Notes under the pieces: generated by a model
The model's database searches: none
The model's input: only the letters and a program-made list of their open reading frames with translations
What the model was told of the DNA's origin: nothing
In this document: positions 9,650 through 56,745 of the stretch, piece by piece
Layout: each line of letters begins with the position of its first letter
Position numbering within the stretch: the stretch's first letter is position 1
Source of the DNA: Pratylenchus scribneri
Lineage: Eukaryota > Nematoda > Chromadorea > Rhabditida > Pratylenchidae
Direction of reading: 5' to 3'
Assembly: GCA_030063045.1 (NCBI GenBank)
Contig: JAQSEB010000050.1
Coordinates: forward strand, 2,790,001-2,854,000
DNA: 64,000 bases
Translations under genes and position numbers: made by a program

Positions 9650-10295
9650 TTTTTTGCACCAATTCCGTCTGTTTTTGCACTAATTCAGCCTGTTTAGTGT
9701 TTTTTGCACTAATTCCGCCTGTTTTGTGTTTTTGCACTAATTCAGCCTGTTTTGTGTTTTTTGCACTAATTCCGCCTGTTTTGTGTTTTTTGCACTAATT
9801 CAGCCTGTTTTGTGTTTTTGCACTAATTCAGCCTGTTTTGTGTTTTTTGCACTAATTCCGCCTGTTTTGTGTTTTTTGCACTAATTCAGCCTGTTTTGTG
9901 TTTTTGCACTAATTCAGCCTGTTTTGTGTTTTTGCACTAATTCAGCCTGTTTTGTGTTTTTGCACTAATTCCGCCTGTTTTGTGTTTTTTGCACTAATTC
10001 AGCCTGTTTTGTGTTTTTTGCACTAATTCAGCCTGTTTTGTGTTTTTGCACTAATTCAGCCTGTTTTGTGTTTTTGCACTAATTCCGCCTGTTTTGTGTT
10101 TTTTGCACTAATTCAGCCTGTTTTGTGTTTTTTGCACTAATTCAGCCTGTTTTGTGTTTTTGCACTAATTCAGCCTGTTTTGTGTTTTTGCACCAATTCC
10201 GTCTGTTTGTGTTTTTGCACTAATTCAGCCTGTTTTGTGTTTTTCTTCACTATTCAGCCTGTTTTTTGTTTTTGCACTAATTCCGCCTCTGTTCC
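9650..10295. repeat. 27/28-bp minisatellite array
   Basis: About 23 tandem copies of a 27-28 bp unit of the form TTTTGCACTAATTCAGCCTG + TTTTGTGT. Copies vary by one T in the run and by AGCC versus CGCC. Both ends are more diverged than the middle. Confidence 0.93.
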
Positions 10296-31498: not shown

Positions 31499-34400
31499 TT
31501 AGATGTGAGTCTTTTCCACTACAAATGCACAAAGTGATTTCAGACAATTTGGCAATTTTGTTGACAATTCTTTGGCTGACAAAATGCCCTCCATTTTTGC
31601 CGGTATTTTTGGCTTTTGGCCATCACATGCGGACATTACTGCCTCGGGAAATTTGGCAGGATGTGCGGTTGAAAGGACAACACATGCCGTTGCTTTTTTT
31701 GCATTTTTCATTTCCTCTTTTTCCATTATTTCGGCTGCGACTTTGATGCCAACCGCCGTGTGCGGATCTGCCATATAGCCACCACAATTGGCATAAATTT
31801 GGGCAATTGTTGCAGTTGTTTCGACCTTAAATAAGGAATAAAATTTTTTTCAAAAAATTAAGCGCCAATTCATAAATTTATTGATTTTTTTGTAATGGAA
31901 TTTTTCTTTCATTCATCTCAAAATAATTTATATAACATTTCATATAAAATTTAAATAATAATTATATTTTTTACAGAAAAAATTAAGTACACACTGATAA
32001 AATTATCCAATTTTTTATTGCTTTTTTGAGGAATCGAATTTTAATTTTAATTTCACTCATCAAAAATTATATTTAATTATTAATTTTAAATTAATTTTTA
32101 TTCACCTCTGTGGCTGAGCCAAATCCAAAATCGGTCAAAATTCTTTGTAAAGTGTCCTTTTCAATTACAAATTCATCTTTTGCCCGAAGCGATGAATATG
32201 CCCGATGAATTTGTTCGGAATTTCGGCCGCTGGCCTCAAAAAGAAGTCGTTCAAAATTGCTGGAAACGACGATGTCCATTGAAGGTGATTGGGTGGGACG
32301 GACTGAACGAATGGCATAAATGCCGGTGGCCAATGTTCGGGCCAAAATATCATTTTCATTTGTGGCAATGATCAGGCGACCGATTGGAAGGCCCATTCTA
32401 AAAATCGAAAATAAATTTTAAATAAAATTTAAAAAATACTCAAAAATTAATTAATTAATTTACTAAACTGTTTGGCCACATATCCGGCAAAAATATTGCC
32501 AAAATTGCCTGTTGGTACCACAAAATCCACTCGACGATGTGGGACACCAATGGCCAATGCAGCATAAAAATAATAGACAACTTGGGCCAAAATGCGAGCC
32601 CAATTTATGGAATTCACGCTGGTCAGGGCCAATTCATTTTGCAATTTTTCATCAGCGAACATTTCCTTCACCAACTTTTGACAGTCATCAAATGTTCCGG
32701 CAATAGAAACGGCGTGAATACTTAAGAAAAAATTAGAATTTTTGTGTGAATTTATCTTAATAATTTTAAAAGTTCTATTTTAATTATTTACAACAAAGAA
32801 ATTTTTTGTTTATTTGTACTAGTAAATTAAAATATTTATTTTTGAAATATGGAAATTAGTATGTAATTATTTTTATTCATTTTTAAATTAATGCATATTG
32901 TATTTAGGGTATTTAACTTGTGGAAAAAATATTGAAAATGTTCAAAAGATTGTTTCTTATTCTTATATACTCCCAAAATAGGGTGTGGTAAAATTGAAAA
33001 ATAAAAAACAATAACTGATAACGATACATTTTGATTTTAAAAAAGCAATAATGATAACGATGAAAAAATGGCCAAAAACGCAATTTTGTGATGAAATGAT
33101 AAATAATTATTTTAAATTATTTTAGTTTTTTAATCAAAATTTTTAAATTATGCCGAAAAAAGTTCTTCATATTTTCTACTACTTTCAAACTCTTTCAAAT
33201 TGCTAATAAAATTTGGTAATTTGAAATTTTCCTTCAATATTTTTTGACATTTTAAATATTTCCCAATGATTGGCTTATATAATTATTTAATTTAATTACT
33301 TTTCTGCACTTGGTGTCGTCATTTGACGCCGTTGAAAGTCAGAAACACGTCCTTTCGGAAAGAGGATGAATGTATTAACGGATGAAAGTGAGGCGAATGC
33401 ATGGATTGCGGCACCGCCAGTATCGCCGGATGTTGCGCCGATCACAGTGGCATGAAGTCCACGACGTGACAAAACATGATCCATTTGTCGGGCAAGTAAT
33501 TGCATGGCAAAATCTGGTCAAAATTATATAATTACTTTCAATTCATCTCGTAAATTTTCTACTAGTAATTTATCGGAATTGCCGTCCAAATTTTAATTCC
33601 GCCTATTAATTAAAATTCCGCCTGTGTAATTAAATTTTAATTCTGTTAGTTTAATAAAACTTTAATTACGAAAATTTAATTACCTTTTATTTTTAATTTT
33701 AACTACCCAACTAAATTTTAATTCCATCGGGTTCTTTAAATTATATAAGTTTTGTCCGAAAAAATATTATTTTATAAATTTTTTTGAAATTAATCTTGGT
33801 CCCTCCTTGGTATTTTCTTCTTAAAAAAGACGTCAATAATCTAGCCAATTTGGCAAAATATGAATATGAAGAAAAGATATCTATCTATCTATCTAATGTT
33901 GTGAGGTGTGAGATATGAAAAATCCCATAAAACAATTTTTGTAATTTAAAAAATTTCGTGATTACAATTTCGAAAGATTGCCATAATTTCAATACCTTTG
34001 AATGCCAATGTAGGCCCATGGAAAAGTTCCATCAAAAATTTATTTGGCCCAATTTGGACAAGAGGGCAAATTGCGGAATGGTCGAATGGTGATGGGGCCG
34101 AATAAACTTGGTCAATCATTTTTTTAAAGCTTCCCAAATCCAAATCCTTTTGATCCGATCCAATGAAAGGGGCCATAATAGTAAATGCCAATTCATTGTA
34201 TGGAAGTCCTTGGAGTGATTCCAATTCAGCCATTGAGAATTTTGGGTAGAATGAAGGCACATAGAGTCCACCTTTTGAATTGATTTAAATTCATATTATT
34301 TTATTAATTTTGACCAGATAATTATTTAATGAATTATTCAAGAATAAAATTAAATTAGAATAAATTAAATTTTAATTAATTCTGGCCATATAATTATTTA

Positions 34401-37400
34401 ACAAATTATTCGTGAATTAATTAAATTATAATAAATTTTAATGAATTTTTCATTAATAAATTAAATTTGAATAAATAAAAATTTTTGTTAATTTGGCCAT
34501 TTAATTATTTAATGAATTTTTGCGTTAAGTAATTAAATTTAAATATTTAAATTTAATTTAATTAATTAAATTTTTATTACTTTTGAAAATACAATTTTTT
34601 GTGAATTAATTAAATTTGAATAAAATTGATTTTCGCTGTATAATTATTTAATGAATTATTAATAAATAATTTAATTTAATTTAATTTAATTTTTTTTATT
34701 TTGGCATATAATTATTTAATAAATTATTCATGAATTATTCAAATTTGGATAAATTAAATTTTTTTTTATTTATTTTGTTCATATTTACCATCCGGGGCCA
34801 ATCCATTCAGCAAAACATCGCAAAATCCAAGTGCCGGTGCCCCACCTCGAGTGCTCAAATATCGCATTGGTGGATAGGAAAATGTGGTGGAAAATAGATT
34901 GGAATTAATGATTTTTGGCATTTGGCCACATTTCTTCAATGCAGCCTCCAATCGACGTTGACGCAATCGGGCATAGGTTAAATAGTCAAAATCGAGGGTG
35001 GATTGTTGTGATTGGCGAAGGGCCCAAATACACCAGAAAAGATGGGTCAACTGAAAAATTATGTTGATATTAAAAGGGTAAATCTCAATTTGGCACTGGG
35101 TCAATCTGTTTCCGCTTATATAATTCATCAAGGAAGGAACCAATTTTGATTATTTTAGTGTCAAAATAAATAGAGACTATTTTTGCCTAAAATTTTACTT
35201 TTATTTTAATTATTTCAGAATTGATATAAAGTTATGCCCTTGAAAACTTTTAAAATACCCTTTGTTCGACATAGACTATAAATATTCTTTTAATTCCCTG
35301 TAGGGAATTATTTTTCATCTTCCCAAAATATTGGTAATTATTAGAGAGTGGGAAATTAAAAGAGCATATATGATATTATCGATTAGAATTTTCCATAGAT
35401 TTTTTTGGATAAAATTCCATGAATTCTGAAATAATTTAAATAAAATTAATATCTTTTGAGAGCTAACAATCTGTTCTTTAATCCAATCAACAAAAAATCA
35501 TCGAAATTGATTTTGTCCTCGATGAGTTATTATAAACGGCACCAAGTTAGAATTAGAACATATCCCCATTAGGAAATCCAATTGAATTTACAGAAACTTA
35601 CTGCTTCAAAACACCGAACATGATGAATGCTTTGGGCCAATTTATCCTCCGATGGGAGTTGACCATCAAAATGTTGGAAATAGCAACGAAGATACATTCC
35701 AATTTCCTCATCCGTAGCACATTTTGCATCTTCTAAAAAATTGAAATGAAAAATAAAAACAATTTTTTACCTGAATATTCCCAGAATAAATTGCCAAAAT
35801 CATTGAGTTGAAAATTGATTCCGGCATATTCGTAATCGATGAAATGAACACATTGTTGAGCAGCATCAAAAAGAATATTGTATCCGAGCAAATCATTATG
35901 GGAGAAAACAATTGGCAATTTGAAGGCAACAATTTTGGCAGACAATTCATCAAAAATTTGGCACAATTTCATTATTTCCTCTGGAATAATTATTAATTAA
36001 TTTTATGATTTTAATTTAAAATTTTAATAAAAAATTATTTATTTCCACTATTTTTGGTCTATAAATATTTAATTACCTTTACTAAAATTATTCCCAATGC
36101 CATTGACTGTAGCCATAGGTTCCATTTTTGCTCCATTATTTTTCGTCGTCATCAATTCGCCCAACCATTTGGTAATTTTGACAAAAGATGCCGTCTCTTT
36201 GCGTGCCACATTTTCATAGTTCACTGATTCGTTGGATGCCAATATTGCCGGAGTGCATTTATGCATTTTGGCCATTTGTTCGGCTATTTTTCTGCAAAAC
36301 AATTGAAAATAATTTGTGTCTACTCTAAAGCTAATTACATAAATGGATCCGAATTCCGAAGTGTCAGAGTGGATTTTTGGTTATGTACAAATAATTTGCA
36401 ATTGATCAAAAAAAAATTTAGGAAAAAAGAATACTTTTCTGCATTGGATAGTATAATTTTTTTTAATTTTCTAAAATTTTAAAAATATTTTTATTTGGAT
36501 TGCACTGGAAAAATCCTTTCATCGTCGGAGTCATCCATTAAATTAAAATGTAAGAAATTTTTTTTTAATTTGTCTTATTCTATGCAGAATAGTTTCCTCG
36601 ATTTTTTTTTATTAAATTTTTTGGTCAACTACAAATATTTTTTGCATTTACACCGATGCGTGGGATCCATTTGTGAAAACGTTGATTTCATTTAAATTGA
36701 ATACTCACTGGCAAATTGCGGGCTTTCGAATTTCACTTGGCTTTAATGGATTTCCAGGCAAATATTCAGTCACAACGCCATTACAAAATATGGCCAATGG
36801 GGCGGCCCCAATTCCCTCATTGCTCAACAAAATGGCAGTTTCCAATTCTTTTTTCCTTCAAATAGATTATTTTTCAATTTCATTTTTAAATTAATTCACC
36901 TATCAATGAATGCTTCGGTGCCAATGCCAAAAATGCGAAACACCAATCGTTCATTGGTGTCCATATTTTCAGCCAAAATGACCAAATTTGTGATCCCATT
37001 CGGAAATGGCTTCAATCGAATTGAGGATGCCAATGTTTTTTGAGGAGGCCAAAAACATTGTTGAATTATTGAAATAATGGCTGATTGTTGTTTTGCCAAC
37101 AAATTCTGAATTTTTAAATTTTGTGCATTAATAATAAATTTTAAAAATTTTTGGCACTTTTAAAATATATAAAAAAATTTTAAGAAATTTATTCATTTTT
37201 TTGGATTGTTGTAAAATTAATTATGTTCAGAAATTTATTTGTTTAAATCCAAAAAATGACTGAATTTACCGAAAAATCTCTGTTTCGAAAAATAATCTTT
37301 GTTGAGGAAATATAACTTAGCTATAATTATTTGTTGGAATTTAGATTTGGTCCTCCAGGGTTGTTGTAATTGAAAATTTATCATGATGTAGGTTAGGAAC

Positions 37401-37636
37401 CTAAAGACTGATATCATTTGGCCAAGTTATATGGCCACAAAAAAATATTATTTTGTGATGCGAAATTTTTTTTGTTAAATTTAGCCATTTTTCGGACTTT
37501 TAATATAGTACGTAATTAATTTTAATAAAATTTCAACCGAATTGTCCATCCCTTCGTCGACAATTTGCATTGGCACTTCCACATTTATGAATGGAATATT
37601 TTCTCGAATAATTGGCTTCTTCATCATTTTTGACAT
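31499..37636 (-). CDS. Ethanolamine/choline kinase fused to threonine synthase
   Basis: Twelve minus-strand exons read as one protein of about 870 residues. The N-terminal half is an ethanolamine/choline kinase: NGITNLVILA, RLVFRIFGIGTEAFIDR, GVVTEYLPGNPL, the Brenner motif VFSHNDLLGYNILFD, FIDYEYAGINFQLNDFGNLF, and LTHLFWCIWALRQSQ. The exon 35050-34789 holds both the kinase end (DYLTYARLRQRRLEAALKK) and, after about 20 residues, MRYLSTRGGAPALGFCDVLL (from 34867), the usual N-terminus of bacterial ThrC. Threonine synthase then continues: DGGLYVPSFYPKFS, ELFHGPTLAFKDFAMQLLAR (PLP lysine), GATSGDTGGAAIHAF, RVSDFQRRQMTTP, SIAGTFDDC, FVVPTGNFGNIFAGYVAKQ, GLPIGRLIIATNENDILART, SPSMDIVVSSNFERLLFEA, DPHTAVGIKVA, STAHPAKFPEAV. 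Both enzymes look complete. Animals generally lack true ThrC, so bacterial origin of this part is likely. Confidence 0.87.
32980..33170. mobile_element. Degenerate hAT-element fragment in ThrC intron
   Basis: Matches the left subterminal region of the element at 18-983: AAAATTGAAAAATAAAAAAC followed by degenerate GATAACGATA words, AAAAATGGCCAAAAACGCAA and a long AT-rich tail. The end sequence is too decayed to show a target duplication. Confidence 0.55.
34310..34760. repeat. Degenerate ~100-bp tandem repeat in ThrC intron
   Basis: The word ATAATTATTTAATGAATTAT or close forms recurs about every 90-130 bp (near 34318, 34390, 34502, 34640 and 34708), usually after TTTTGGCCAT or a similar word. 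This is an old tandem array. Confidence 0.6.
37290..37490. repeat. Decayed foldback element (kin of 12690-12944)
   Basis: Contains ATTTGGCCAAGTTATATGGC and further words of the 12690 element's right arm, with a degenerate left arm (GAAATATAACTTAGCTATAA). It lies in the first intron of the kinase-ThrC gene. Confidence 0.5.
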
Positions 37637-41789: not shown

Positions 41790-42410
41790 CTTGCAATTCT
41801 TTCTTCAAAAAAACATTTTTCTTAGTCAACCGAAAACATATTTTTCTAAGACAAACTAAAAACACATTTTTCTTAGTCAAATGAAAACACATTTTTCTTA
41901 GTCAACCGAAAACACATTTTTCTTAGTCAACCGAAAACACATTTTTCTTAGTTAATCGAAAATCCTTAGTTAATCGAAAATACATTTTTCTTAGTCAAGC
42001 GAAAACACATTTTTCTTAGTCAATCGAAAACACATTTTTCTTAGTCAACCGAAAACACATTTTTCTTAGTCAAGCGAAAACACATTTTTCTTAGTCAAAT
42101 GAAAACACATTTTTCTTAGTTAATCGAAAATCCTTAGTTAATCGAAAACACATTTTTCTAAGACAAACTAAAACACATTTTTCTTAGTCAACCGAAAACA
42201 TATTTTCTTAGTTAATCGAAAACACATTTTTCTTAGTCAAACAAAAGCACATTTTTCTTAGTCAAACGAAAACACATTTTTCTTGGTCAAACGAAAACAC
42301 ATTTTTCTTAGTCAAACGAAAACACGTTTTTCTTAGTCAACCGAAAACACATTTTTCTTAGTCAACCGAAAACACATTTTTTCTTAGTCAAACGAAAACA
42401 CATTATACTT
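41790..42410. repeat. 25-bp minisatellite array
   Basis: About 24 copies of a 25-bp unit of the form CACATTTTTCTTAGTCAACC + GAAAA. Variation is mostly in CAACC/CAAAC/TAATC. A larger block seems duplicated, since the ATCCTTAGTTAATCGAAAA variant appears twice (about 41957 and 42131). The array begins soon after the CGL-like stop and may lie in its 3' flank. Confidence 0.93.
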
Positions 42411-46526: not shown

Positions 46527-49500
46527 ATGGAAGCGGAACAGCAACCGAGAAATCCGGAAGATGACGTTGAATTGCCTGGTTTATTTTCAAATAATAATTT
46601 TATTAATTTTTTATTTAAGCTAAACTGCGAAATGAGGGAAGACTGCGAACAATGGGACAAGTGGATGTACTGCTGAACGGTTTTGAGATGGTTTTGGGCA
46701 AAGCTGTAGAAAATGTCTTCCATTTTGAATTGAAATTCTGGTACAAGAAGCGCGCTCAACCAGGACAACCAGAGCCGCTGCCAAAACCATTGGAAAAAGG
46801 GCTGAGAAACGAGTTCGGTTTTTTTATTGATAAATTATTTGTTAAATTTTGCGCTATTCGGATTTTGCGCATTAACAAATTTGTCAACAATTCAATCTAT
46901 TAATTGGTGTTTGTTACTTGTGCTGTTTGGATCCTATTATTTGTTTTGTTGAGGATGGGAAAAGTAGAGGGGATCTTCAGGTTTCAAGATTAAACTTAAG
47001 GTCATTAAGGACGGAGACGATATCCAATCACTGAAAGACTATGACCTTAACCTTATCCCCAATCCTGTGATCCATAAATAAATGTGACTCGGGCACCGGG
47101 CCCTTCACTTTTCCTCTGTGGGCCAAAAAAATATGACTCAACCCAAACAAAAAGCACATCTATTTTGTTAAGCTTATTTTTAGTGAAGTTACTTTTTGGC
47201 CTATTTAGACCTTAACTTTCTAATCAAGCAATAACATTTCACATCCAAATCAGGGTTTTACAATTTAGCGGTAGATTTTACAAAATTCGCTATTAGAGCG
47301 AAGCAATATAATTTTGAAAGTTGATTTCTACGCAAAATCCGAATAAGCAATAAGCCAATAAAATCATCATATTAAATATCTCCTCAAAAATTATTTGTTT
47401 CAGTGAAAGCAGAGAGACACGTCGCCGCTTGCTTTGGGCCCTTTTTCAGCAGCTATTCGACCAGCAACCAGAAACATTTGGCAAAGACCGTGAACGTCAA
47501 AAATTTGTTTGGGACTGTTCAACGGCCCTGTATTCTCCCACCGATTTGAAAATGAAAGTGGGAGAGAAGCGAGAATTTGTTCTGGATGTGAAAATGGTCA
47601 GTAAAAAGAGGTTTATTTGGAAATTTTTCGACCAAAATGCAAATTGGGAGGGGGCCTTCACTTTTGATACATTTAAAAGGGCGCGGTTCGAATCTATTAC
47701 CTATCAAGGTAATAGGTAAATTAATATTAGGCTTAGGCACACTCACAATCATTTTTTAACATTTTCCCATTCAAAATTTTTATTTTAATTTTTAATAATT
47801 TTCACAGAATGTCCTTGAGGACCGTTGCTCGGCCTATATTCGCAATATGGATTCAATCAGTGCCATTTTGGTGCGCACAAATTTGGTCATCAATTTGCGC
47901 AACGCCGGCCCCGCCTTTGTGCAAGGCGATGATTCAGTGGTCACTTTCCTGGAATTGCTCAGTTCCCAACGAATGTTCGAAAAAACCAACCATTTTTGTT
48001 TTGGCAACCGATTCTATGACAGTCGCCGCGAGGGCAATATTCCAATGCAAGATGTGGCACCGGTGCTGAAGAAGGGCCTTCAAAAGAATGTTCGATTTGT
48101 GGGCGACACAATGCAGGAGGCACAGCCAATTTTGCAAATTTATCGTAAGTAAAAAATTTAAATATTAAATTTTATTTAATATTTTTGGCCAATTCTATAA
48201 AATTTATTAATAATTTTTAAATTAAAAAAAAATTTCAGCCAAAAAGTCGGCATTCTTCACTCAGGGCAGTGTCGTCGATTATTTTCGCGCATTTTGTACA
48301 CCGCCACGAGGAAGGACGATCAGCGCAGATGATTTGGCCAGGCAACTTCAGCGTCAACAAACTTTTCGAGATGTAGACCGCCACATTAGAGGTTTGATTT
48401 TTTTATATTCAAATCAAAATAATTTATTTAATCAAAATAATTTAAAATAAAATCTTCAATTTTATCGATTAAATGGTTTTTAAACCTTCAAACCAAATAC
48501 CAAATCCATAAATCTCTTCGAGACGCATGTGCTTGATAATGATTTGTATTTACATAGATTTAGCCAATTTTAAAAGATTTTGAATCGTTAAAACAACATT
48601 GTTTACAGTTTTACCCTAAATTTTTGATCAAACAATGACTAATTATATTTATATTCCAATCGACGCATCTTGACGAGCTCTATTAATTAGGGTATACGAT
48701 TTTGAGGTCCAGTACAAACCATTAAGCCGCTAAAACTTTTCGCCAAATATACATTATTTTTATGAAAATGTTTCCATATTTATTCCATCCAATAAAAATA
48801 GGTGTTGTTGTCCAAACGAACCATCTGGAAAAGACTATGTCATTTCAAAATGCTGGAATGACCGATCGACCGGCTTCGGAGCTCACATTCATTCATGATG
48901 GCCAACAAATTACCGTGGAAAACTATTTCAATACTCATTATCGGATTCGACTTCGTAATGCCAATCTGCCATGCATCATCAGACGAACACCAAGAAGCCC
49001 TGGTGTGGTGGATGAATCCTATTTTCCAATGGAAGTAATTGAAATTTGGTTGGTTTTCATTTTAACTGAATAATATTTTGATTTATAATTCTGAATTTTC
49101 ATTCCAATTTTTTATTCCAATTTTTTATTCTGATTTATAATTCTGATTTATAATTCTGATTTTTTGTTCTGATTTTTATTCTGATTTTTTGTTCTGATTT
49201 TTCTGATGTTTTGTTCTGATTTTTAATTCTGATTTTTATTTTGTTCTGATTTTTATTCTGATTTTTTGTTCTGATTTTTCTGATTTTTTGTTCTGATTTT
49301 TAATTCTGATTTTTATTTTGTTCTGATTTTTATAATTCTGATTTTTTGTTCTGATTTTTATTCTGATTTTTGTTCTGATTTTTCTGATTTTTTGTTCTGA
49401 TTTTTAATTCTGATTTTTATTTTGTTCTGATTTTTATAATTCTGATTTATAATTCTGATTTTTTGTTCTGATTTTTATTCTGATTTTTTGTTCTGTTTTT

Positions 49501-52500
49501 TCTGATTTTTTGTTCTGATTTTTTGTTCTGATTTTTAATTCTGATTTTTATTTTGTTCTGATTTTTATTTTGTTCTGATTTTTATAATTCTGATTTATAA
49601 TTCTGATTTATAATTCTGATTTTTTGTTCTGATTTTTATTCTGATTTTTTGTTCTGTTTTTTCTGATTTTTTGTTCTGATTTTTTGTTCTGATTTTTAAT
49701 TCTGATTTTTATTTTGTTCTGATTTTTATTTTGTTCTGATTTTTATAATTCTGATTTATAATTCTGATTTTTAATTCTGATTTTTATAATTCTGATTTAT
49801 AATTCTGATTTTTTGTTCTGATTTTTATTCTGATTTTTGTTCTGATTTTTCTGATTTTTTGTTCTGATTTTTAATTCTGATTTTTATTTTGTTCTGATTT
49901 TTATAATTCTGATTTATAATTCTGATTTTTTGTTCTGATTTTTATTCTGATTTTTTGTTCTGTTTTTTCTGATTTTTTGTTCTGATTTTTTGTTCTGATT
50001 TTTATTTTGTTCTGATTTTTATTTTGTTCTGATTTTTATTTTGTTCTGATTTTTATAATTCTGATTTATAATTCTGATTTTTAATTCTGATTTTTATTTT
50101 GTTCTGATTTTTTATTCTATCTAAAATTCTAATTTTTTGTTCTTATAAATTATGATTTTTATTCTGATTTTTTTAGCGATGGTCAATCGTTGTCGATGGA
50201 AAAGCAAAGACAAATTCCGGCATTAACTGAACAAATGATTCGTCAATCGCAAGTGAGGCCGGCAGATGTGCCTGCTCAAATTGTGGAGCAAAGGGATGTG
50301 GCCCACTGCCAAAGTTCCAATCCATTCTTCAAGTCCTATGAAGTCAAAATTAGTCCGGATCAAATAAAGGCGCAGGCAAATTTGCTCTTTCCGCCTGCAA
50401 TCCAATATGCACCACGCCAAGAATGTGTTCAGCCGGATCAGAGAGGATGTACGAAAATATTTTTTAAAATAAATTTAAGAAAAATATAACAATTAAAAAT
50501 TTACATACAAATAAAATTATTTTTTTCAGATCTTGATTGGAAAATGTCGGGACAAGGAGTCGCCCCCAACCGTGCATACATCAAACCGGCTGAATGGCCT
50601 TCTCGCTGGGCAATTGTGATCGTACAAAATGCCATTTCTCAGGATGATTGCACGTAAATATTTTTATTTTAAATTAATTCTTAAATTAACCCAAATTTTC
50701 AGTCGATTTGTCAACTTTTATGTGCAAACCGCTCGCAAACGTGGTCTGAATTGTTCCCTTGAAGCACCTGTTCAAGTCCACTGGGACCAATGGCATGATT
50801 CATCTCTGTAAATTTTGACATTTTTCGATAAAATAAATACTTTTAATTCAGGGAATATGTGGAGGACAAATTCAAATTTTACCGAACCCACAAATGTCTG
50901 TTTGTACTGATGTTTGCCCCAGGCAAGAAGAATGCCCATGCCGGCGACATTCATCATGCCCTCAAGTTGATGGAACAAAAATATGGTAAGTTTAATATTA
51001 TTAATTAATTTTTGACTGAAAATTAACAATAATTTTACATTTAATATTTTTAATTAAAATTTTTGCCTAATTTTTTTTTTTTTTATTAATTTTATGCCAA
51101 TTTTAAGACATTGTCACTCAGCATATCAGCCCGGAAGTGGTTCGCAATTCGACTCTAATGAAAATGGACAATGTTCTGTTCAAAACCAACCAAAAACTTG
51201 GCGGCATAAATTGGTCATTGATCACTTCGGATGCCTATAAACGTGCCAGCGGCAACCCAGAAGATGTTCTGTGAGTTTATTTAAATTATTTTTTAAATGA
51301 TTAAAAAAAAGAAAAAATTTGATAAAAAAATTATTTTTAAAAAATTAAGTATTTATGAATTATCCATTTTTAAAATTAGATATTAGATGTTTATTCATAA
51401 TAAAAATCTACTATTATTTATTTACCAAAAATTTTCTCGAAAAAAACTTATTTTTTAAACTATTATATAAATCGTTCAAATAAAGCTATTAAACTTTAAT
51501 CTTAATCCAAACCTAATCCTAGCCCAAAACACTTTGTTATGGCCAAATTTTATGGCTCAAAAAATTATTTTCGAATATTTCGGTTTCGGAAAATTCACAA
51601 AAATTCTCTCAATAATTTTTCATTTCCGAATAAAATTTCCAAATTCTTTCAGAGCAAATGTTTGGCTTGGTGGCAAACGAATGTTCATGGGGTTGGATTG
51701 GTCGCATGCTCCACCATTAAGTTTTCATGACCGCAAAAAGGGCAAAGTCCCTGCAATTCCCACCGTTGTTGGGGTTAGTTTTAGGCTAAACTCATTTTGA
51801 AGTAATATTAAATAATAAAAGATGGCCTATACAATGGGAAAGGAAGTGCTGGAAATGCGAGGGACATATTGGTTTCAACAAGTTCGTCAAACCACCATTA
51901 CACCGGAATATATGCGACCATTCATTGATAACATCAAGGAGGCATTGATCACATTTAGTGACAAGAATAATTACTTCCCGGAGCATTTGATTGTGTTTCG
52001 TGGTGGAGCATCCGAGGGCGAATTTAAACGAGTAAGTTTTTGGGAATTGGGAAATTAAATTTTAAAAAAATACAATGAAAAATAAAAAAGATTTAATTTG
52101 TTAATAAATTTTTAAAATGCCAAAAATATTGTAACTGTTCAAAAATTTACCCTAGACCTTAACCTAATATACGATTATTTATTTGCGTCGAGAAGTATAA
52201 TTAAATAATGTTTTGGCTTGGATTTAACCAATTCCCAACTTAATTTTGAACCAAAAAAAACTAAAATTGGTTTAAGCCGTTTAATACCCATTATTTTGAC
52301 CAAACAATGGCAAATTATATACCATGCATCTCTTAACCAGAGCTCTATTCAATTAGGTACATTGTTTATGAATTTAGGACAAATCCAAATTATTATAATT
52401 ATTTTGTGTTATTTACAGTTTTTCGGCAAATTATTAAATACTTTTTAAATTTTTTTCCAATTTTAATTTTAAGGTTGCCTATTGGGAGGGCCGTTCATTT

Positions 52501-55774: not shown

Positions 55775-56395
55775 TTTCTTCAATCTACAATAAATTCATT
55801 TTTTGAAGAAAATAGAATTTGGGAATTTTTAGGATTATGAATGGAAGAATTATATAAGTTCTTTTCTTATTAGCAATTATTGGAAGTGAATGAGTATCAA
55901 AAATTAGTGAAAACAACAAATTGGTAAACAACAATTTGGTGCCATCCTCTGGCTAGCTGGAATTCATTCGGGAACAGTTGGTCCCATCCCTCCTTCTCTG
56001 TGTTTACTGTTTAATGCTTAAACCGAGAAATAAAGGAATACATTTATTATACTAGCAAATATTTGGTGAATGAATGCTGTTCTTATGAATGAATGAATGA
56101 AATGGCAGCTTCTTAAAGAATATAGATGGATAATTCTTTATTTGTTCATCTTATTAGTGTTGCATATAAAATTTAAACTCGCTTGATTTTATTTATTTAT
56201 TACAATTAGTATTTAGTATACACATGTAGTACAGACTGGTCCAGTCTCAAAATTCGAATTCAGAAAATTCAATATAAATATATCATTATGTTCATTAAAT
56301 ACATAAACCGTAGATTCTCTATTAGAAGTTCGGGGCCTTTTATAAGGTTTAATCCCCAAAAATCGATTATCTGTCACATTATTCGAAAACATTTG
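55775..56395. other. Intergenic, no gene seen
   Basis: Upstream of the secreted protein gene. It has a short GAATGAATGAAT run near 56086 but no exon. Confidence 0.45.
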
Positions 56396-56745
56396 CATTC
56401 ATCAGCTGGACATGCCCAAAAAATATGCATTCATCAGCTGGACATGCCCAAAAAATATGCATTCATCAGCTGGACATGCCCAAAAAATATGCATTCATCA
56501 GCTGGACATGCCCAAAAAATATGCATTCATCAGCTGGACATGCCCAAAAAATATGCATTCATCAGCTGGACATGCCCAAAAAATATGCATTCATCAGCTG
56601 GACATGCCCAAAAAATATGCATTCATCAGCTGGACATGCCCAAAAAATATGCATTCATCAGCTGGACATGCCCAAAAAATATGCATTCATCAGCTGGACA
56701 TGCCCAAAAAATATGCATTCATCAGCAGGACATTTCCGAAGGATT
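56396..56745. repeat. 32-bp minisatellite, homogenised
   Basis: About 11 tandem copies of a 32-bp unit of the form CAGCTGGACATGCCCAAAAA + ATATGCATTCAT. The copies are identical until the last, which breaks up. All three plus frames are open through the repeat, so the long ORFs here are artefacts. Confidence 0.95.

Follow-up and report, generated by a model that had tools for sequence, protein, structure and literature searches.

An in-frame fusion of a nematode ethanolamine kinase paralogue and an alphaproteobacterial-type threonine synthase in Pratylenchus scribneri, with a possible role in threonine salvage

Background

Why should a nematode carry a threonine synthase (ThrC), and why should it be joined to an ethanolamine kinase? 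The question is raised by a gene within a stretch of 64,000 nucleotides from Pratylenchus scribneri (NCBI GenBank assembly GCA_030063045.1, contig JAQSEB010000050.1, positions 2,790,001 to 2,854,000, forward strand). This whole stretch is referred to here as the window and its numbering is used throughout. The spliced translation of 12 minus-strand exons, from 37636 to 31499, gives a single open frame of 876 codons with one terminal stop. The encoded protein has, in this order, an ethanolamine/choline kinase domain, a 21-residue linker and a complete threonine synthase.

At the level of the DNA the fusion is genuine. Its two parts most likely differ in origin, the kinase having the sequence character of the nematode's own ethanolamine kinases and the ThrC that of bacterial enzymes. 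Animals are generally regarded as incapable of threonine synthesis. The best overall explanation, to which a probability of about 0.4 is given, is that the fusion may be a bifunctional enzyme for the salvage of homoserine to threonine.

The fusion gene and its junction exon

The initial annotation of this DNA proposed that the two halves are joined in frame through the exon at 35050-34789, in a gene running between 31499 and 37636. Both the fusion and these ends are borne out by the spliced translation, in which all 11 introns are GT-AG and the phases are consistent throughout. The coding part of the gene (31499-37636, minus strand) divides into a kinase half and a ThrC half. The kinase half, residues 1 to 376 (34931-37636), is of the ethanolamine/choline kinase family by PF01633 and by its place in a nematode clade. 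The ThrC half, residues 398 to 876 (31499-34867), starts with M398 at 34867 and matches PF14821, PF00291, PF24857 and TIGR00260.

Exon 1 (37538-37636) encodes residues 1 to 33 from a start codon at 37636, and its IPFINVEVP pairs in the alignment with IPFFDVQIP of a standalone ethanolamine kinase. The donor of this exon, TCG followed by GTTGAA, is poor and is the weak point of the gene model. Exons 2 (36900-37105), 3 (36709-36855) and 4 (36077-36291) are followed by exon 5 (35771-35980), which carries the kinase catalytic motif HNDLLGYN (35900-35877) and FIDYEYAG, and by exon 6 (35602-35732). On the ThrC side, exon 8 (33996-34271) ends in TLAFK with K515 (33999-33997), the lysine that in this family binds pyridoxal phosphate (PLP). 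Exon 9 (33300-33513) has GATSGDTGG, exon 10 (32469-32720) has PTGNFGNI, exon 11 (32106-32397) has SPSMD and SSNFERLLFE, and exon 12 (31499-31825) has DPHTAVG, STAHPAKFPEAV and the stop. The three catalytic motifs originally pointed out, SHNDLLGYN, TLAFKD and GATSGDTGGA, are all present in the spliced protein.

Exon 7 (34789-35050) is the junction. It reads in a single frame from LTHLFWCIWALRQSQQSTLDFDYLTYARLRQRRLEAALKK through the linker CGQMPKIINSNLFSTTFSYPP (residues 377 to 397; 34868-34930) to MRYLSTRGGAPALGFCDVLLNGLAPD and one base of the following codon, and thus contains the final 40 kinase residues, the 21 linker residues and the first 26 complete ThrC residues. The linker had been put at about 20 residues without a stop, and at 21 open residues it agrees. 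When exon 7 was searched as DNA against the 227-Mb, 276-contig assembly, in which match counts are lower bounds, the sole match found was the window's own copy. The openness of the linker alone is weak evidence, since a frame is also open in 505 of 2867 63-nt windows taken from introns. At 261 nt, which corresponds to exon 7, none of 1438 intron windows is open. The guanine-plus-cytosine content of the gene is 33-48% in exons and 10-26% in introns; that of the linker is 36.5%, a value reached by 67 of the 2867 intron windows of 63 nt.

The linker that separates the end of the kinase from M398 contains no AG acceptor, and the two AGs shortly before it (34946 and 34934) have no preceding pyrimidine tract, which makes trans-splicing at the junction unlikely. 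A search of the window for the C. elegans spliced leader, with up to 3 mismatches allowed, found none, which is uninformative because leaders are encoded elsewhere. An arrangement as two genes in an operon was considered and rejected for the lack of a stop, of an intergenic gap and of an AG in the linker. It is very probable that both halves are expressed as one transcript.

The threonine synthase half

The ThrC half has PF14821, PF00291 and PF24857 (the N-terminal, PALP and C-terminal domains) in order, each over its cut-off. TIGR00260 scores 266.4 bits over residues 102 to 444 of the half, against an equivalog cut-off of 167.1. The ThrC that opens with M398 is of normal bacterial length and has the conserved sites FKD at 514, SGDTG at 544 and NFGN at 659. 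For the N-terminal and the C-terminal ThrC domains, one match each was found in the assembly, both inside the fusion gene.

Conservation was assessed across 199 bacterial-type rows (119 proteins, many of metagenomic origin, and 80 loci), which were picked for similarity to the query. A column was taken as near-invariant when at least 98% of the rows have one residue. The ThrC half keeps 121 of the 123 such columns despite an overall identity of about 55%, while yeast Thr4, a genuine threonine synthase, keeps 105. One exception, N662, is shared with two solved threonine synthases (3v7n and 8g1y); at the other, Y738 stands for M, and yeast has F there. The retention of these columns argues for a working synthase under selection, not a relic. 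As judged from its conserved residues, this half has probably kept the PLP-dependent conversion of O-phosphohomoserine to threonine. A 575-residue ThrC (P0001), the best match of the full-length search, has a long central stretch repeated, perhaps through an assembly error; it was excluded from the trees and from the 199-row count.

Origin of the threonine synthase half

Among solved structures, 4f4f comes closest with 521 bits, while 1kl7 scores 330 bits; we take these to be the Brucella and the yeast enzyme, respectively. The protein database holds 5.77 billion proteins, and the ThrC searches scored the 7999 candidates sharing the most words with the query. Named entries among the best 120 of these 7999 ThrC matches are mostly Hyphomicrobiales (Nitratireductor, Chelativorans, Mesorhizobium), with 54-58% identity. 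In the named genomes, 577 relatives were confirmed and the best 80 of the 577 used; identities to the ThrC half are 50-55% across Rhizobiaceae, Ancylobacter and Rhodobacterales alike. Because Rhodobacterales and Hyphomicrobiales are intermixed at the top of these 80, no donor is named. Identity is 52.4% to the gene on Sinorhizobium pSymB, about 48% to Paracoccus, 42.4% to Deinococcus and 40.0% to Paenibacillus. ThrC genes of a second type, found on Hyphomicrobiales plasmids, have about 36-42% identity to the ThrC half.

Within one alignment, the ThrC half has 54.5-56.6% identity with three alphaproteobacterial-type rows; with yeast it has 45.0%. As a yardstick from the same alignment, yeast is 45.4-48.0% identical to two alphaproteobacterial-type rows, and those two, from different orders, are 57.5% identical to each other. 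The candidate classification of the ThrC half as a yeast-type enzyme was rejected on these values.

Trees were built from selections of 72, 48 and 33 rows. In the 33-row tree the ThrC half and 25 alphaproteobacterial-type rows share one side of a branch (94/90, not starred), and the ThrC half lies beside Rhizobiaceae and Phyllobacteriaceae (80/94, not starred). The outgroup of this tree was seven rows: yeast, Deinococcus, Paenibacillus, Collinsella, Ruminococcus and two of the second-type plasmid genes. In the 48-row set, placement of the ThrC half with Rhodobacterales was not rejected by the approximately unbiased (AU) test (p 0.23). By sequence identity the ThrC half is alphaproteobacterial in type, and its gene was probably acquired horizontally; for the 33-row tree, the AU test does not reject a position outside the 25 rows (p 0.181).

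The kinase half

PF01633 matches the kinase half over residues 66 to 366 with 185.2 bits (cut-off 29), and the standalone paralogue with 229.0 bits. A kinase tree of 13 rows, taking in 11 of the 14 database matches (P0132, P0133 and P0134 were excluded), places the kinase half in a nematode ethanolamine kinase clade (100/100) with Ditylenchus destructor, Caenorhabditis japonica, a database fragment (P0129) and the standalone kinase of its own genome. That standalone ethanolamine kinase (locus L006, with a near copy, L012) has the usual NHFCEYAG motif. Among the six introns between kinase exons, four match the standalone paralogue in column and phase; a fifth agrees in phase and is displaced by three columns. 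The nematode clade and the shared intron positions suggest that the fused kinase is a duplicate that diverged on its own. Its branch is 2.36 long; those of the standalone copy and the Caenorhabditis row measure 0.80 and 1.97, respectively. By sequence and intron positions, the kinase half is a diverged second paralogue of nematode ethanolamine kinase.

The catalytic motifs HNDLL..N (residues 250-257) and DYEY (residues 271-274) are among the 42 of 46 ethanolamine-kinase conserved columns that are retained, as are R90 and E105. Judged by sequence, both halves seem functional, with the ThrC being the clearer case.

PF01633 has 21 exon-level matches in the genome, including those of the fusion itself; loci L002, L003 and L007 resemble choline kinases. 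That the fused copy might be the only ethanolamine kinase of the genome was considered and dismissed, since the standalone gene and its near copy exist. These two (G000:C59 and G000:C23, respectively) are very similar and lie on different contigs, as a recent duplicate or a haplotype copy would. An intron of L006 is filled with a TTAAAACTTGGCGAACATTT repeat. Closest in the tree to the fused kinase (91/90) is P0129, a 227-residue kinase from a 921-base contig; no ThrC is seen in this fragment.

Pathway context and proposed function

Threonine synthases depend on O-phosphohomoserine; where might the ThrC half obtain it? In the 227-Mb assembly no match was found for homoserine dehydrogenase or for aspartate-semialdehyde dehydrogenase, each of which was matched in 14 of 14 control genomes. 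Likewise, the assembly gave no match for GHMP homoserine kinase (14 of 14 controls matched, 11 over cut-off) or for PRK05231 homoserine kinase (controls matched in just 5 of 14, 1 over cut-off). With no homoserine kinase match, the fused kinase is the sole candidate found for making O-phosphohomoserine, the alternative source being food. The likely substrate is narrowed by the lack of matches to homoserine kinase and dehydrogenase. The bacterial type of the ThrC, the second, diverged kinase paralogue and these pathway negatives are points beyond the initial annotation.

A pairing of the two activities is found on plasmid pAA02 of Aminobacter aminovorans (L112), where a PRK05231-type homoserine kinase (404 bits) lies directly downstream of thrC, 29 bases apart. 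This thrC is of the second type, with 41.5% identity to the ThrC half, and is unlike the type in the fusion. A part of one study of Trypanosoma brucei states that, of the threonine pathway, this parasite encodes only homoserine kinase and threonine synthase (PMC4460637). According to the same part of that study, procyclic forms can replace threonine by homoserine, homoserine lactone and certain acyl homoserine lactones, for which the kinase is required (PMC4460637).

A comparable route can be proposed for the nematode. A nematode ethanolamine kinase gene would have been duplicated, and one copy joined in frame to an alphaproteobacterial-type ThrC gene, most likely horizontally acquired, with introns gained later. 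The kinase half would phosphorylate the hydroxyl of a small amino alcohol; most economically, this would be homoserine, giving O-phosphohomoserine. The ThrC half would then convert O-phosphohomoserine to threonine with PLP. Homoserine scavenged from plant, food or bacterial sources could thus be used by a bifunctional salvage enzyme.

Homoserine is tentatively put forward as the substrate of the kinase half, by analogy with the systems above. The fuller proposal, that an animal feeding on plants built its own two-step threonine salvage from a bacterial ThrC and a duplicated ethanolamine kinase turned homoserine kinase, is rather unlikely as it stands. If it were true, an animal would have regained a step of essential amino-acid synthesis, and a transferred bacterial gene would have been domesticated through fusion to a host gene.

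Several observations weigh against the salvage proposal. Four of the 46 conserved kinase columns are altered: NHF has become NLF, the G of the next AG is lost, a nearby D is E and a P is A. The motif NHF..E(Y/F)AG is therefore not found in its usual form, with L287 where 13 of 14 other rows have H, and no counterpart for the G of 13 of 13. The loop after the kinase catalytic motifs is 4 or 5 residues shorter, and the altered columns cluster there, so the kinase could be impaired. The residues E290, W342 and W345 of amino-alcohol kinases are retained. PRK05231 scores just 18.6 bits on the kinase half, far below its equivalog cut-off of 271, and identity to the Aminobacter homoserine kinase is 23.0%, where five ethanolamine kinases have 20.2-25.0%. 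The control genomes are prokaryotic and without introns, so that an intron-rich pathway gene could be missed in the assembly. No orthologous fusion in another nematode is among the listed protein-database matches. As to the origin of the ThrC half, the AU test did not reject holding it outside the 25 alphaproteobacterial-type rows (p 0.181), nor, in the 48-row set, outside the alphaproteobacteria (p 0.073 and 0.218).

Ordinary ethanolamine kinases score in the same way with PRK05231: the nematode three have 23.7, 25.7 and 25.3 bits, and the other six 16.6, 12.5 or are unlisted. That the fused kinase descends from homoserine kinases was considered and rejected, because both its PRK05231 score and its Aminobacter identity are within the range of ordinary ethanolamine kinases.

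Alternative explanations

The two halves may instead be functionally unrelated, with the kinase acting on ethanolamine or choline, the ThrC on O-phosphohomoserine from food, and the join serving co-expression or stability. The 42 retained ethanolamine-kinase columns, together with E290, W342 and W345, are as expected of such a protein, and the kinase half scores as PF01633, not as a homoserine kinase. Set against this, a normal standalone ethanolamine kinase already covers the function in this genome, and the fused copy has an altered loop and a long branch, at 2.36 compared with 0.80 in the standalone copy (the Caenorhabditis branch, however, measures 1.97). This explanation is somewhat unlikely, and is the strongest of the alternatives.

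It is improbable that the gene gives two products, one of them kinase-only through early polyadenylation in intron 7, the other ThrC-only and initiated internally at M380 or M398. The frame does stay open briefly into intron 7, up to a stop that ends at 34766, just beyond the donor; AATAAA occurs in the AT-rich sequence of that region, and M398 would give a ThrC of normal bacterial length. However, a full kinase requires exon 7, whose frame continues into ThrC, and the linker without an AG and the AGs at 34946 and 34934 without a pyrimidine tract make trans-splicing unlikely.

Slightly less probable again is a ThrC half that acts as a phospho-lyase, converting O-phosphohomoserine or O-phosphothreonine to 2-oxobutyrate with removal of phosphate and ammonia, the kinase supplying the phospho-amino acid. 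Mammalian THNSL2 is a reported phospho-lyase. Mammalian homologues of bacterial threonine synthases are named, in a part of the B6 database paper, as enzymes unexpected there (PMC2748086). On that partial account, an animal member of the family need not be a synthase. The ThrC half of the fusion, however, is closer to the three alphaproteobacterial-type rows (54.5-56.6%) than to yeast Thr4 (45%), and it retains 121 of the 123 near-invariant bacterial columns.

A related idea came with the initial annotation, in which the kinase would phosphorylate an amino alcohol or hydroxy amino acid and the PLP half would then eliminate the phosphate. Of this, a kinase that supplies a phosphorylated substrate to the PLP half is plausible. 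ThrC enzymes use alpha-amino acids as substrates, so phosphate elimination from phosphorylated ethanolamine itself is less likely.

That the gene is an artefact of assembly or prediction, or has decayed, is very improbable: the fusion is known from a single genome and has a weak exon 1 donor, but 876 codons are open over 12 exons with all splice phases consistent, the near-invariant ThrC columns are kept, the ThrC half has introns, and the window lies 2.79-2.85 Mb into its contig, with a gene encoding a PAZ domain in the vicinity.

Genomic surroundings

The PAZ domain is on the plus strand at 48726-49070 (PF02170, 52.6 bits), within open stretches at 47354-49073. About 1 kb before it, at 47354-47716, is a weak match, below cut-off, to HRDE1_NRDE3_N, the N-terminal domain of the nematode Argonautes HRDE-1 and NRDE-3. 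The open stretches at 47354-49073 are probably exons of an Argonaute gene. They are followed by a large TTCTGATTTTTTG array (49089-50143).

Minisatellites with a 32-bp unit are present at 517-813 (9.3 copies, 95% matches) and at 56386-56733 (10.9 copies, 99% matches), and these arrays have more than one open frame. Other arrays have a unit of about 28 bp (9670-10288, reported as 57, 86 and 142) and of 25 bp (41808-42404, 24 copies). Two matches to the pectate lyase family PF03211 lie some 1-2 kb before the start of the window (G000:C50:2787917-2788924). Pectate lyases are expected in a plant-feeding nematode, and at least 27 PF03211 matches are listed in the assembly, with none in the 14 control genomes.

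Comparison with known systems

The initial annotation knew of no described enzyme with this pairing of kinase and ThrC, and none was found among the best 120 of 7998 database matches to the full-length protein or in the open-access full texts searched. All of these 120 have the three ThrC domains and none has PF01633; one (P0087) also has a peptidase domain, PF00675. The length range for this search was about 482-1533 residues. No fused homologue is among the best 120 of 7999 matches to the ThrC half, for which the range of 264-838 residues is too short for the 876-residue fusion, or among the 14 matches to the kinase half (219-694 residues). Nematode proteins (Ditylenchus, Caenorhabditis) are present in the database. 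In the literature, no such fusion and no comparable nematode threonine synthase was found in open-access full texts, with preprints, supplements and most subscription papers lying outside this search.

The salvage proposed for the fusion resembles that of T. brucei, as far as a part of that study describes it, in having the end of the pathway alone and scavenging homoserine (PMC4460637). In T. brucei, on the same partial account, the two activities are separate proteins and the homoserine kinase has been assayed, whereas the nematode has one fusion with an ethanolamine-kinase-like kinase known from sequence (PMC4460637).

Compared with bacterial ThrC of the main Hyphomicrobiales type (TIGR00260), the ThrC half is alike in its three Pfam domains, its TIGR00260 score, the 121 of 123 columns and an identity of about 52-58%. 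It differs in lying on a nematode chromosome, in having introns and in its N-terminal kinase. With nematode ethanolamine kinase, the kinase half shares the clade (100/100), intron positions, HNDLL..N and DYEY. The fused copy differs by NLF for NHF and a shorter loop, and the kinase is standalone in Ditylenchus destructor and elsewhere in this genome.

Vertebrate THNSL1 joins a shikimate-kinase-like domain to a ThrC-like domain, and had been offered as an analogue. It likewise has a small-molecule kinase fold ahead of a ThrC homologue, and to this extent the analogy is sound. The kinases are not related, and no shikimate kinase domain is among the five Pfam families found on the fusion protein, so that the likeness is a parallel. 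Of known kinds, the nearest is a probably transferred gene fused to a host gene, with the kinase-ThrC pairing distantly paralleled by THNSL1.

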